DNA of 64,000 nt, from contig NZ_SMLZ01000116.1 in assembly GCF_009711415.1 (NCBI RefSeq), forward strand, positions 189,000 through 252,999, given 5' to 3'. Positions 59,407-64,000 of this stretch are shown here, one piece after another. Position 1 is the first letter of the stretch. The number at the start of each line of letters is the position of its first letter. A program made the position numbers and the translations under genes. The stretch is from Roseibium denhamense. Lineage in GTDB: Bacteria; Pseudomonadota; Alphaproteobacteria; Rhizobiales; Stappiaceae. The notes under the pieces were generated by a model. The model made no database searches and was not told the DNA's origin. It was given only the letters and a program-made list of their open reading frames with translations.

Positions 59407-60723
59407 CTAGAACGGAAAAGGCCTTGCTGCGAATTCCTCTTCGCTCGCCCGTTGCTGCCGCCAGCCGCGGTCGACCACGCCTTGAAACAGGCGCTCCTTG
59501 CCAAACCGGGGCTGCCAGGAACACAAATCCGCAGAAAACAATTTTACGCACGGGATCTTAAGATCGTCGCGGGTCGCGTCAAACTCCCAGATCTGAAAGT
59601 CCCGGGCCGCGAGGTCGTCCAGCAAGGCCGCAAACGAATACTCTGTCATAAGACCGGCGCTGTCCGCCATTGGCGCCGATTGAAGCGGCAGGTCATCGAA
59701 GACACTGCGCCCGCGCGCGTACGCAAGATGAGACGGCACCTTTCCCGTCGAAGCCATGTAAGCTTTGTCCATCAAGCGGAGTGAATTTTCCGACTGAAGC
59801 ATCTCTGTAGCAGCACTTTGAAGTGCGGCGACGAAGGTCCAGCCCGCACCGGCGCCTAGTGCTGTGTCTTTTCCGTCCGGACTGCAAGAAATCGACACTG
59901 CGATATGCACCGGTAAATCCGTATCAACGGCGAGGCAAAAGGTTTGCCGGCTTCTATTCGCGAGAAAACGCGTTAGACTTTCGTCTAATTTTTCTTGCAG
60001 AATCCGATTTTCGACGCGGGTTATCCCCAGCCGGTTGTACCACATTTGGGCGACTGCATCGCGCTCGGCGAGCTCAAGAAGCGCCCGTTCGCGCGCGCCC
60101 GCCCTGTCCGTCCAGACGGCACATCCACTTGTCGATGTCAGACCCGGACCCAACCGGTCCAAGGGCCCGCTGCAGTCAAGGAAAACCATTTCTGGAGGCA
60201 GGCGACCTGTCGTACGCCCGTCCAGGCGCACGACATCGACCCAATCCTCATCTTCATTTCGGTGCGGAGCAGAGGAACCCCTGTGTGACGCCGGCTCCTG
60301 CTTGAATTGTTCAAGGGAAATTGCCTGGGCTGGGCTGAAACCAAGGATCGGAAAATAATCTACCATTGGTTGCTTTTCGGGTTTTGCGGCGGATATCCTG
60401 TCCACCCGCCCAGATCGGCAAAGGCTTATCCGTTCAGCTAATTCGCCAAGACAACTCAAGACTGCATCGGCATCGGTGAGACCTTGCCCGCCTGCCGGAA
60501 GCCGAACCGGAGAAGCACCTGCCCCATCGGCAACAGAGACAATCCCGGTCCAAAATTTGACCGGGCATTCCCCCGTTGTCATCGGTCTCAGGTCGGGATT
60601 GAAGGAGGACAAAAGAGGCGCAAACGGCATGAGCGCTTCTGCGATGGTGATGCCGTCTTGTCCGTCCGGTCCGGTTACGGCTTTTGCAAGTCCGGAATGC
60701 TCCAAGGCTTTTAGGTGGTCCAT
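59407..60723 (-). CDS. YcaO-domain peptide-modifying enzyme of a RiPP cluster
   Basis: YcaO proteins use ATP to activate backbone amides and form azoline rings, thioamides or amidines in peptides. From ATG 60723 the protein has 438 residues; a TTG six codons upstream is less likely. All three ATP/Mg motifs are present: LGELAER (E94, E97, R98), LLELAERDA (E217, E220, R221, D222) and ATEMLQS (E307, Q310). The C-terminus ends RPFPF, a shortened form of the proline-rich tail of azoline-forming members. No E1-like partner or dehydrogenase gene is fused to it or lies beside it within the window. It diverges from two small NHLP-type genes. Confidence 0.87.
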   Translation of the reverse strand: MDHLKALEHSGLAKAVTGPDGQDGITIAEALMPFAPLLSSFNPDLRPMTTGECPVKFWTGIVSVADGAGASPVRLPAGGQGLTDADAVLSCLGELAERISLCRSGRVDRISAAKPEKQPMVDYFPILGFSPAQAISLEQFKQEPASHRGSSAPHRNEDEDWVDVVRLDGRTTGRLPPEMVFLDCSGPLDRLGPGLTSTSGCAVWTDRAGARERALLELAERDAVAQMWYNRLGITRVENRILQEKLDESLTRFLANRSRQTFCLAVDTDLPVHIAVSISCSPDGKDTALGAGAGWTFVAALQSAATEMLQSENSLRLMDKAYMASTGKVPSHLAYARGRSVFDDLPLQSAPMADSAGLMTEYSFAALLDDLAARDFQIWEFDATRDDLKIPCVKLFSADLCSWQPRFGKERLFQGVVDRGWRQQRASEEEFAARPFPF

Positions 60724-60991
60724 CAAGTTACTCTTGCCCAACTGGGTACATATTCAACTCGCATTCTTCCAACTAGCCCAGCATTACTTGAATTTTAAAC
60801 TGCCCTCAGTAATTGCACCGCTGCGCGTATTCACAATATAGGTTGTAATTTTTGAGCGCCTCCGGTTAGCGTTGAAAGTGGAACAGGCAAGTAATCGAAG
60901 CCTTCAAGAAGCGTATAACTTCGAAATACTTCCATTGTCCAACAGCGTCAAACAAACCGGCCAAACAAAGCCGGCTACCTGGAGAACGACA
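60724..60991. promoter_or_regulatory. divergent promoter region between YcaO and the first precursor gene
   Basis: This 268-base gap must hold promoters for both the YcaO gene and the precursor operon. Its central part (about 60770-60850) is AT-rich. The precursor reading frame is open back to 60872 but the ribosome site at ATG 60992 marks the real start. I see no defined operator; the neighbouring SARP-type protein is a candidate regulator. Confidence 0.45.
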
Positions 60992-61285
60992 ATGCGTACA
61001 GACAAGTATACCCAAAACACTGTCGAGTTGGGCCGCAAGCTGGCGTCCATTATTTCCGACCCAGCAGCCCGTGATGCCTTTCTGGCAGACACAGAAACGG
61101 CCCTTCAGAAAAACGGTGGCAATTCCGAGCTTACTGTCTACGCCGATACTGTTGACCATGTTCATCTGATCATCCCGGCGCAGGTCGACGCGACGCGTGT
61201 GGCCGCAGATGATGCTGCATATTTTGAGGAACTCGGCCGCCTCGCGCTCGGCAACTGTGTCTACAAGGAAGAACTGCCGGAGTGA
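60992..61285 (+). CDS. NHLP-type RiPP precursor peptide, copy 1
   Basis: This 97-residue protein has the layout of nitrile-hydratase-like leader peptides (NHLP). An N-terminal helix (ELGRKLASIISDPAARDAFL, about 12-31) is followed by a beta region ending in HVHLIIP at residues 56-62. That proline marks the usual end of the leader. The following tail has the box DDAAYFEELG (73-82) and a single cysteine (C89, in LGNCVYK) eight residues from the end. GGAG eight bases upstream sets the start. It is far too short for a nitrile hydratase and lacks its metal motif. It sits first in a two-gene string next to YcaO. Confidence 0.78.
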   Translation: MRTDKYTQNTVELGRKLASIISDPAARDAFLADTETALQKNGGNSELTVYADTVDHVHLIIPAQVDATRVAADDAAYFEELGRLALGNCVYKEELPE

Positions 61286-61295
61286 TTTTTCAAAC

Positions 61296-61318
61296 AAGGC
61301 CGGGCAGCGCCCGGCCTT
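61296..61318 (+). terminator. strong stem-loop between the two precursor genes
   Basis: A perfect ten-base G/C-rich stem (61296-61305 with 61309-61318) with a three-base loop lies between the first precursor stop and the second precursor ribosome site. Only three T residues follow, so it is likely a leaky terminator or an RNA-stability element that makes copy 1 more abundant than copy 2. Confidence 0.7.
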
Positions 61319-61338
61319 TGGTGGACAGGAGACTTCTC

Positions 61339-61626
61339 ATGGCACGGTTCCCATTCTACAGGCAGAACATCCAAGCTTTGGGACGTTTGATTGCTGAGGC
61401 AAGGCTTGATGAAAACAAGCGGAAAGCTCTCATCGACAACCCCAAGAAGTATCTGGCTGAAATTGGTCTGCCTGAAAAAACCACCGAACTCATGTCATTC
61501 GCGGTGATCGACGATCCGGACCGGAAATCGGTTGCCCTCCCCTATAAATTGGATACCGAACTGGTCCGGTCAGACGACAGCAGCTATCTTGGCAGTCTGG
61601 GCGCCCAATTCCAAAGAGCGCACTAG
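61339..61626 (+). CDS. NHLP-type RiPP precursor peptide, copy 2
   Basis: This 95-residue protein is a paralogue of copy 1. It shares the start pattern YRQNIQALGR (copy 1: YTQNTVELGR), the helix ending in a DNPKKYLAEIGLP segment, and a strand ending ALPY (residues 66-69). Its tail has DDSSYLGSLG (79-88), matching copy 1 in spacing, but no cysteine and several serines. GGAG lies eight bases upstream of ATG 61339. Its stop codon overlaps that of the convergent regulator by four bases. Serine rather than cysteine would be the likely modified residue if the tail is the core. Confidence 0.75.
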   Translation: MARFPFYRQNIQALGRLIAEARLDENKRKALIDNPKKYLAEIGLPEKTTELMSFAVIDDPDRKSVALPYKLDTELVRSDDSSYLGSLGAQFQRAH

Positions 61627-63620
61627 GCTTGGTGGCCACCGCCGAAAAAGAAGCGTTTGACCAAGGTCACCCCCTGATCGTAGCGGTGCCTCGTCCGGGG
61701 GTCTTGGAAGAAATTTGATTTCGCGGCCCATTCCTCAGGATTATGGAGCCCCAGTCCGGTGTTTTTCACGATCGCATCATATTTCTCGCGATAGCGCTCC
61801 AAGACTTGCAGGGCCTCTGGCTCCCGGCCGGCGCAGACCAAAGCAGCAACACGTGTTGTGAGGCCAGATATGCTGCTTTGAGAGGCCCTTTCGACAAACT
61901 TTGCAGCCATGTCGTAGTCTTCTGAAGCGAAATAGACATTGGCATAATATTCATAGAACAGTCTTGGAACTGCAGCCACCAGAGACATCGCTTCTTCCGC
62001 ATTCCGCCTAGCCAATGCGACGTCGCCCGAAAATGCCAAACCCTCGGCAACCGACATCAGATTGGTTGGGTCAACGGTATTCAACCTGCCCGCTTGAAGG
62101 AATGCACGGCGCGCCATATCCGGCATATCCGACTGAAGCAAAGCCCAACCATGGGCCCTCTGGTTCCACGGCTGCCAGGGATCCAGGGTCACGGCTCTTT
62201 CGCAGAGGGACAAAATACTATCCATCTGCATCCCACGGTCTTTTTCCTTCACTGGATAATTGACCAGGTGCTTTAGGTTGATCATGGCTTTGGCCGAGAA
62301 CACCATGGAAAAGTTATTGTAGTTGCCTTCCAATTCCTCAAGCAATTGCAGGGCTTTACGGTCTGAACCTGGATCGAACTCCCACATCAAAGCTTCGGCT
62401 TGGCACCAGCGCGCAAATGCGGCGCTGTTTTTTGGGTCGCGCAACCTGTTTGTCGTATGAAGATGGATCCGGCTGATCGTGTGACTGGCAGCGGCATGGA
62501 CGCTATCCCACAGGCGCAGGTCCACTATTTCGTTGAAAACGATCCGGCCATCGGCGCGGTCTTCGAACTGGATCGCCGTCTTGCCGCTCTGTTCATTGTG
62601 ACGGAACTTCAGGAGGTAACTGCCCAGTTCGGAGCCGTTGACCAGCATTGACGAAGCCGGATCATCAAAACCTCCGCCCCCCTCATAAAGATCATATGAG
62701 CGAAAGCCTGAAAGACCGGCAATGACTTCGTCCTTCAAATGCTGGATCTCAATCAGTTCTTGCTTGTTGATTTCGCTCGACAATATGGAAACCGAAGGCA
62801 GGATGATTTCACCCGTCTTTTTCGCTGTCTGTTGCAGAGCACGCTGGTCGCGAGCCTGCCGGGCAGCCGGTACACCATGGCCCATTGCAGCGCGCGGCAA
62901 CTGATCTTCCAGAAGCGCTCTGGTTTCCTCTGACGGCTCAATATCGAGATGCAGCTGAAGTTCACGCTCGCAACTCTTGAGTTGATGTTCGGCCCGCTCT
63001 CGTTGGCCAAGGGCGAGATAGAGCCTCATGAGCACTCTGTGCGCGGTTTCAAATGCCGGATCCATTTTCAGAAGAAACAAGGCCCCGGCTTCAACGCGAA
63101 CTCCATCATCGCTTGTATCTTCCGGATCCAGGTCTTTAAGAACGAGCGAGAAAATATCCGCATTGATCCTTTCCCGTTCGACCACGAGCCATGCGCCGAA
63201 TTCCGGATCGAGATCTTCATAGCCGGCTAGAAAGTCTCCGCGCCACAATTCCGCGGCTGCCCGAAATGCCTGCGCACTGCCGTCTTCGATCAACTCGCCG
63301 AGGCACAATAAATCAGATTGGAACACCGCACTGTCGACGTGAAGATGGCCGCTGGAGGACATGACATAGTCAACGCCCGCTTCCGTTTCCGCGGATTTGA
63401 GCTGCTTGAGCGCTTGGCGCAAAGACTGCATTGCCTTGAGACGTTCCGCATTGCTCCACAGGAGATCTGCCAGGCGGTCACGGCTGTCACCCATGCTGCG
63501 CTGGCGGATCAAATACCCCAGAATCGCTAATGCTTTACGTGTCTTTACGGATATGGGATCGCCATCCGCTCCGATCAGCAATGGACGTCCCAAACAGGCA
63601 AAATAGGGGCCGTTTGCCAT
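61623..63620 (-). CDS. SARP-like regulator with BTAD domain and TPR-type C-terminus
   Basis: This 665-residue protein starts with an OmpR-type winged helix (about 1-75, RKALAILGYLIRQ) and a bacterial transcriptional activator domain (BTAD, about 80-245, with FLAGYEDLDPEFGAWLVVERERI). The middle (about 270-390) looks like the TolB/FlgO-like domain seen in CadC-type and SARP-like proteins. The C-terminal half is a helical repeat region. ATG 63620 has GGGGA upstream. Similar regulators sit beside NHLP/YcaO peptide clusters in other proteobacteria, so I infer it controls the precursor and YcaO genes. It converges on precursor copy 2 with overlapping stop codons. Confidence 0.82.
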   Translation of the reverse strand: MANGPYFACLGRPLLIGADGDPISVKTRKALAILGYLIRQRSMGDSRDRLADLLWSNAERLKAMQSLRQALKQLKSAETEAGVDYVMSSSGHLHVDSAVFQSDLLCLGELIEDGSAQAFRAAAELWRGDFLAGYEDLDPEFGAWLVVERERINADIFSLVLKDLDPEDTSDDGVRVEAGALFLLKMDPAFETAHRVLMRLYLALGQRERAEHQLKSCERELQLHLDIEPSEETRALLEDQLPRAAMGHGVPAARQARDQRALQQTAKKTGEIILPSVSILSSEINKQELIEIQHLKDEVIAGLSGFRSYDLYEGGGGFDDPASSMLVNGSELGSYLLKFRHNEQSGKTAIQFEDRADGRIVFNEIVDLRLWDSVHAAASHTISRIHLHTTNRLRDPKNSAAFARWCQAEALMWEFDPGSDRKALQLLEELEGNYNNFSMVFSAKAMINLKHLVNYPVKEKDRGMQMDSILSLCERAVTLDPWQPWNQRAHGWALLQSDMPDMARRAFLQAGRLNTVDPTNLMSVAEGLAFSGDVALARRNAEEAMSLVAAVPRLFYEYYANVYFASEDYDMAAKFVERASQSSISGLTTRVAALVCAGREPEALQVLERYREKYDAIVKNTGLGLHNPEEWAAKSNFFQDPRTRHRYDQGVTLVKRFFFGGGHQA

Positions 63621-63806
63621 CAATTCCCCATGCTGTTGCAGTCATGTTCATAATACTTAGGCGTTACAACCGCCGACACTAGAACAACCCGTAATACAAC
63701 ATCAGTCTATCACGGTCGTTTCACGCTGAAAACGCATGTTAGGACTGATGTTGGCTTTGTATCCGTCCGGTCTGGGCGGGAGAGATAGAACCGGTGGGTG
63801 GTTATT

Positions 63807-64000
63807 ATGTCTAAAACAGCGTACTCGCAACAAGCGCCCGATTTCGAGCAGGAGCCTGCGATTGAGGCCATCAAGCGGATGATCCGCTACACCAAGAAGG
63901 AGTCCGACAAGGACGGCCGGACATTTTGCTCCTACTTCCTGGACATGGCGCTGCAGTCACTAGAAGACGGATCCGAAGACCTTGATACAATGCTGAAAAG
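63807..64000 (+). CDS. 5' end of an unrecognised gene, divergent from the regulator
   Basis: ATG 63807 opens a frame that is still open at the window edge, giving about 64 residues. The sequence is charged (SKTAYSQQAPDF, then helix-forming RMIRYTKKESDKDG) with one cysteine (FCSYF). I do not recognise it. Codon use looks like that of true genes, and it diverges from the SARP-like regulator, so it may be part of the peptide cluster and under the same control. Confidence 0.6.
   Translation, partial: MSKTAYSQQAPDFEQEPAIEAIKRMIRYTKKESDKDGRTFCSYFLDMALQSLEDGSEDLDTMLK

Follow-up and report, generated by a model that had tools for sequence, protein, structure and literature searches.

YcaO enzymes that act on NHLP-type precursors are already known (MprC, NstD), and tandem NHLPs ending in cysteine have been noted in Burkholderia. 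In the available text of the MprC report (PMC12455567), MprC and MprD represent an azoline-forming YcaO system working on the NHLP leaders of MprE1-10, NstD/NstC are named in the same source, and an RRE is reportedly used by YcaOs that modify NHLPs, MprC among them. The tandem precursors, NHLP-Burk (TIGR03795; Haft 2010, PMC2887384), are described in the accessible part of that paper as NHLP-related gene pairs, one member of which ends in Cys, and no NHLP exporter of any of the three types was found with them. What these paired precursors give rise to is left open in the available portions of the 2010 and 2015 papers. Moreover, it is stated for Actinobacteria that most stand-alone YcaOs have no known function (PMC8442711, accessible text).

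Here we discuss a locus in Roseibium denhamense where a YcaO gene lies next to two small genes, P1 and P2 (Table 1). It is situated at the end of the window, by which we mean the whole stretch of 64,000 nucleotides analysed, part of a 451-kb contig in a 4.8-Mb genome. An earlier note on this DNA had described the open reading frames with the strands and lengths found here (97 and 95 residues for the small proteins included), a SARP/BTAD regulator converging on the small genes, which the BTAD domain bears out, and a further gene starting at the window edge, which in full encodes 85 residues. The YcaO gene is divergent from P1/P2, and the BTAD gene converges on P2 with overlapping stop codons. 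Sequence comparisons make us lean, with modest conviction, towards a stand-alone YcaO system that would act on one cysteine of P1, the product most likely being a thiazoline. In more general terms, the likely picture is a small folded protein in which one invariant Cys close to the C-terminal end is altered by an enzyme that uses ATP.

Table 1. Features of the YcaO locus in window coordinates.
Feature	Position	Strand	Remarks
YcaO enzyme, unfused, 444 aa	59407..60741	-	TTG start, alternative ATG at 60723
P1, Cys-bearing NHLP-type candidate precursor, 97 aa	60992..61285	+	Gly82 and Cys89 invariant, 48/48
Hairpin between P1 and P2	61296..61318	+	10-bp stem, 3-nt loop
P2, NHLP-type paralogue without conserved Cys, 95 aa, variable tail	61339..61626	+	
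BTAD/TPR regulator, 666 aa	61623..63623	-	PF03704 E 6.9e-12; 47/47 loci
Edge gene, 85-aa protein, loosely linked neighbour	63807..64000 (ends L003 7064)	+	

In a survey of 87 genomes of the family (thresholds E<=1e-15 for YcaO and E<=1e-6 for P1), YcaO and P1 are present in the same 48 genomes. These are 42 of the 45 in the window's own genus (g1, apparently Roseibium with Labrenzia), 5/5 in g4 (apparently Pannonibacter) and 1/1 in g5; the two were found in no genome of g2, g3, g6 and g7. Among the 47 loci fetched, P1, P2, the BTAD gene, the edge gene and a CAP gene occur in every one and a phosphodiesterase gene in 44, in one common order. The three members of the genus without YcaO and P1 keep the flanks, and YcaO, P1 and P2 are jointly gone from the site (the absence of P2 being judged within the fetched stretch only); the BTAD gene is also missing in two of these stretches and retained in one. 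The edge gene, by contrast, stays in place in all three, and it was hence ruled out as a firm member of the locus. Co-inheritance, common order and joint loss agree with the earlier proposal that YcaO and the small proteins form one pathway. The gene set described in the note is confirmed; it is not a lone cluster, the locus being fixed in most of the genus.

The locus keeps the same genomic place and changes faster than its flanks. With the window as reference, the median identities are 43% (YcaO), 47% (P1), 45% (P2) and 52% (BTAD protein), compared with 76% for CAP, 73% for both the edge gene and a 268-aa ORF, 66% for the phosphodiesterase, and 60% for a 212-aa ORF and the DUF192 gene. Beyond position 64000, the edge gene is followed by tRNA-Arg, an NDUS4-type gene and two ORFs without family, and farther away by DUF192, cold-shock and Sir2 genes; the window-side flank consists of CAP, metallophosphoesterase, PMT-type and PAP2 genes. 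Past the edge, where the note had thought that the pathway might continue, none of the six genes read was recognised as part of it. Irrespective of the side, none of the ten neighbours (four window-side, six beyond the edge) was recognised as encoding a transporter, a protease, a known RiPP enzyme, LanM, an rSAM protein, a dehydrogenase or an E1-like protein, and none is a TfuA gene. A search of the whole genome with TIGR03882, the model for fused-type C domains, gave nothing at E<=0.01, and defence models gave zero matches to the five proteins scanned. The NHLP exporter model TIGR03797 has 87 matches in the genome; they were rejected as an NHLP exporter, since all are below the cut-off and similar matches occur in 14/14 control genomes.

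This setting bears on a scenario in which YcaO marks the P1 Cys and P1, modified but left whole and perhaps partnered by P2, has an intracellular role such as redox or metal sensing, with nothing cut or exported. The neighbourhood free of transporter and protease genes would suit it, and so would inheritance at one site (no P1 match among 72,556 plasmid records) and the seven-residue tail that follows the P1 Cys in 46/48 genomes. Thioamidation of uL16 is, moreover, an example of in-place protein modification by a YcaO (PMC13063428, available text). However, it would be odd for a housekeeping system that YcaO, P1 and P2 outpace six flanks (60-76%) and that three genus members live without the locus. 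We regard this scenario as rather unlikely, yet as one to be taken seriously.

The YcaO protein was held to be catalytically intact in the earlier note, and this stands. It matches PF02624 above the cut-off (E 5e-36), and E100, E103, E223, E226 and Q316 are invariant in an alignment of 35 rows, in which the ExxE and ExxER motifs, likewise invariant, align to their TruD/LynD counterparts. We take the acidic residues of these motifs to be ATP/Mg-binding. The best NCBIfam model is TIGR03604 (90.1 bits, short of its cut-off of 219.25), and no S12/RimO-type YcaO model is among the NCBIfam matches; the RimO-associated housekeeping type was part of what the note had named as a possible refutation. 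A profile of the 35 rows matches the known structures of TruD (2e-29), LynD (1e-28) and MusD (4e-20), and far more weakly the archaeal YcaOs MJ1094 (2.8e-6) and 6ci7 (9e-4). In the AlphaFold model (pLDDT 85, pTM 0.87), for which LynD is the top fold match and MusD comes after it, the N-terminal 54 residues are arranged as helix-strand-strand-helix-strand; no RRE was recognised in the model, and this counts against the stand-alone azoline reading. The C-terminus reads RPFPF in 40/48. Taken together, the comparisons support a YcaO that is intact, unfused, of the TruD/LynD type and inherited with an NHLP-type pair. The genome's only other YcaO (L005 8847-11494, contig C1) adjoins a TfuA protein (PF07812, 1.3e-47), and the two are closest to McrA-glycine thioamidation models, below their cut-offs.

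The title of the MusD structure (7u58) refers to ATP-dependent peptidase activity, and its place as third sequence match, and after LynD in the fold matches, lends something to another scenario: YcaO would be an ATP-dependent peptidase cutting before the Cys and freeing a short Cys-headed peptide. Both TruD and LynD match the YcaO better than MusD does, and we hold such a cut to be improbable; further evidence that bears on it comes from remoter loci (see below).

The small proteins had been likened to NHLP leaders with short, variable tails. Their paralogy is upheld (hhalign 98.7%, E 1.8e-16), and the leader likeness in part: a profile of P1, P2 and their single relatives matches nitrile hydratase alpha (1v29, 1.8e-7) and the NHLP leader MprE7 (8TB1, 3.7e-5), but against the NHLP model TIGR03793 P2 scores only 25.6 bits (E 7.9e-6, cut-off 50.9), five relatives likewise stay below the cut-off, and P1 has no NCBIfam match at E<=1. 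As to the tails, variability holds for P2 and not for P1, which is conserved mainly in its C-terminal half (mean column conservation 0.77 for residues 49-97 vs 0.54 for residues 1-48). In P1, Gly precedes the last Cys by seven positions in all 48 sequences (Gly82-x6-Cys89), and seven residues follow this Cys in all but two of them, eight in the window. P2 starts with MARFP in most loci, has no conserved Cys, and carries a Cys within its last 15 residues in only 4/48. The P2 tails, of unlike lengths, end in Asn in 34/48 and in Leu-Asn in 24/48.

Several of these features count against the reading that we lean towards, i.e., the missed TIGR03793 cut-off of P1 and P2, and a P1 core that is conserved, unlike those of many NHLP RiPPs, which vary. 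The same holds for the lack of a Gly-Gly type cleavage motif in the P1 tail (alignments inspected by eye; absent from the P2 tail as well) and for the poor AlphaFold model of P1 (pLDDT 68), with which a fold search gave zero matches. Moreover, P1-P2 pairs without an adjoining YcaO, present in 2/87 genomes, weigh in the same direction. One such second pair is in the window's own genome (contig C39, L140 9348-10117) and the other in one other genome (L211 3761-4464), each in a fetched stretch without YcaO; both second P1 copies keep Gly-x6-Cys and have a longer tail.

The spacer between P1 and P2 holds a GC-rich hairpin in most loci, and its structure is kept across relatives while its sequence is not. 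The mean perfect stem is 10.9, vs 5.9 in same-length upstream control stretches, and in 36/47 loci it was reached by <5% of 50 shuffles (by more in the other 11). Five T in a row are found in only 4/48. This element looks like an mRNA 3'-end or an attenuator that would favour P1. Upstream of P1, many Roseibium loci (e.g., L042, L057, L061) contain an inverted repeat, GAAAgcaGTCAA...TAGTAAA / TTTACTAAaGTTTGACttaTTTC. The repeat was dropped as an operator because it exceeds all 30 shuffles in only 14/48 loci, the window not among them. The same upstream regions have a GTGACCATCC box; repeat and box may be where the regulator binds, though without significance in the window.

In the thiazoline reading, P1 would be the substrate; its leader would be folded and nitrile-hydratase-like, and its core, G82-x6-C89, very short. 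Using ATP, YcaO would activate the carbonyl of the backbone that precedes C89, most likely closing it to a thiazoline (-18 Da). As no dehydrogenase was recognised nearby, the thiazoline would stay, or be hydrolysed with release of a C-terminal piece. P2, a P1 duplicate minus the Cys, would probably serve as partner or docking subunit, and the hairpin in front of it would cause it to be made in smaller amount. The BTAD/TPR protein would set the expression of the locus.

Relatives with a single NHLP gene shed light on the origin of the pair. A P1 profile search of 397 genomes across the order matched 18, nine in the own family and nine in others. Eight of the nine outside genomes, seven from one genus (f18, in which 7/8 genomes match) and one from f25, have just one NHLP gene, flanked by YcaO and a convergent BTAD gene, with edge-gene relatives in six of the eight loci; the ninth match (L149) is a classic NHLP beside a fused-size YcaO, located elsewhere in the tree. 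The single precursors end in LGC[LCH][RK]P-x-x tails (RGCR in L145), and all eight have Gly-x6-Cys, counting the first of two adjoining Cys. In a YcaO tree of 46 rows, drawn with a midpoint root and with ten of the 48 pair-type enzymes sampled, these ten and the eight single-NHLP enzymes group together vs 28 others (100/98). If the root lies outside, L145, the precursor of which ends Cys-Arg, is the first branch. The shared Gly-x6-Cys and the joint YcaO grouping suggest that the pair probably arose in the Roseibium-Pannonibacter line by duplication of one Cys-bearing precursor, with loss of the Cys from one copy.

The same data weigh on the idea that P2 is the real substrate, its variable tail being the core, with P1 as the partner. 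P2 has the better NHLP score and the variable tail with its frequent terminal Asn. However, the scarcity of Cys near the P2 end, the Cys and P1-like Gly-x6-Cys of the single precursor in other families, and a hairpin that would make P1 the abundant product all speak for P1, and we consider a substrate role of P2 very improbable. A search for related loci based on P2 found no relative. Class-wide, the P profile matched five of 385 genomes besides the own, and four loci fetched from three of these five contain different NHLPs but lack this type of YcaO. In another family of the class, L181 (G496 contig C42, 8387-12110) carries an array of seven NHLP-type precursors, six of them with a Gly-Gly motif.

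Thus far, the discussion has concerned NHLP-type loci. From 33 other YcaO matches, 27 remoter loci were fetched (L172-177, L182-202). A regulator profile spanning the whole protein matches 20 of these stretches at <=1e-50, L174 weakly and the other six not at all; the three matches checked (L173, L186, L183) all have a BTAD domain, in one case joined to a cyclase domain. In 21/27 loci, 22 proteins with a near-terminal Cys were found, and a small residue is at position -7 of that Cys in 22/22 (12 G, 9 A, 1 S), the background frequency of G/A/S at -7 of a Cys being 0.283. Ten of the 22 were chosen for a Cys-Arg end, so that their penultimate Cys is by choice, nine came via blastp and three via a pattern requiring the small residue; 19/19 are therefore free of the latter bias, with the proviso that sister pairs are not independent. 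The Cys is penultimate in the remote precursors, including the 9/22 obtained via blastp, which were not chosen for that trait. This recurrence is in keeping with the improbable peptidase, as a cut before a penultimate Cys would free a dipeptide, Cys-X.

Such a precursor was not found in the remaining six loci (L176, L185, L193, L199, L201, L202), two of which (L201 and L202) have YcaOs of fused size, and this counts against the reading that we lean towards. Eleven precursors compared with Pfam/NCBIfam gave no match below E 0.1 except an IniB-related one (5e-5, L182). For the remote 150-aa precursors an NHLP origin was not adopted, hhalign giving just 38%. Animal-type haem peroxidase genes lie beside some remote YcaO loci (L172 10669-12225, L173 6832-8451, L184 10592-12358); among the four loci tested, the domain is above the cut-off in these three and below it in L175, and a literature search on YcaO, heme peroxidase and RiPP together returned no paper. 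Within the window's own family, the remoter YcaO type is present in 3/3 genomes of g3, 9/14 of g7, and two genus members that also have P1.

These look-alike sets elsewhere in the order suggest that peptide-modifying pathways of an as yet undescribed class exist, a view to which we give about an even chance in the following form. Stand-alone YcaOs, mostly beside BTAD/TPR-type regulators, would act on one C-terminal or near-terminal Cys of a folded scaffold of ~95-200 aa, read via a small-residue-x6-Cys signature common to scaffolds with no or weak similarity, with an animal-type haem peroxidase joining in at some loci; -Cys-X would be the ancestral ending, lengthened later in the NHLP branch. 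The class is not named in the literature found, a search that mostly left subscription papers outside. A one-Cys signature on unlike scaffolds would help to find the partners of stand-alone YcaOs. Moreover, one enzyme and one small protein would constitute a minimal system for YcaO action where neither an E1-like partner nor an RRE is recognised, and P1/P2 would represent a natural experiment, with duplication of a precursor and loss of the reactive residue from one of the copies.

How, then, does the locus compare with the known systems, as far as their available descriptions go? The bottromycin and streptamidine YcaOs (PMC8442711, PMC4603692) are likewise unfused and without an E1-like partner, but they go with other precursors and genes, and streptamidine belongs to Actinobacteria and Firmicutes. 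The MprC system shares the combination of YcaO and NHLP, and it is the MprE7 structure that the P profile matches; MprC, however, has an RRE and an oxidase partner, whereas here no RRE was recognised and no oxidase adjoins, and it introduces two to six rings in ten precursors, in contrast to the single invariant Cys of P1. NHLP-Burk, finally, also has a tandem NHLP pair near a YcaO-containing protein. There, a cyclodehydratase-docking fusion is accompanied by a large kinase and the Cys is terminal in one member, whereas here the 444-aa YcaO is unfused and the P1 Cys is ninth from the end; a search of the genome with TIGR03795 gives nothing even at E 10. Judged by the accessible descriptions, the nearest known organisation is that of the tandem NHLP-Burk precursors of 2010.
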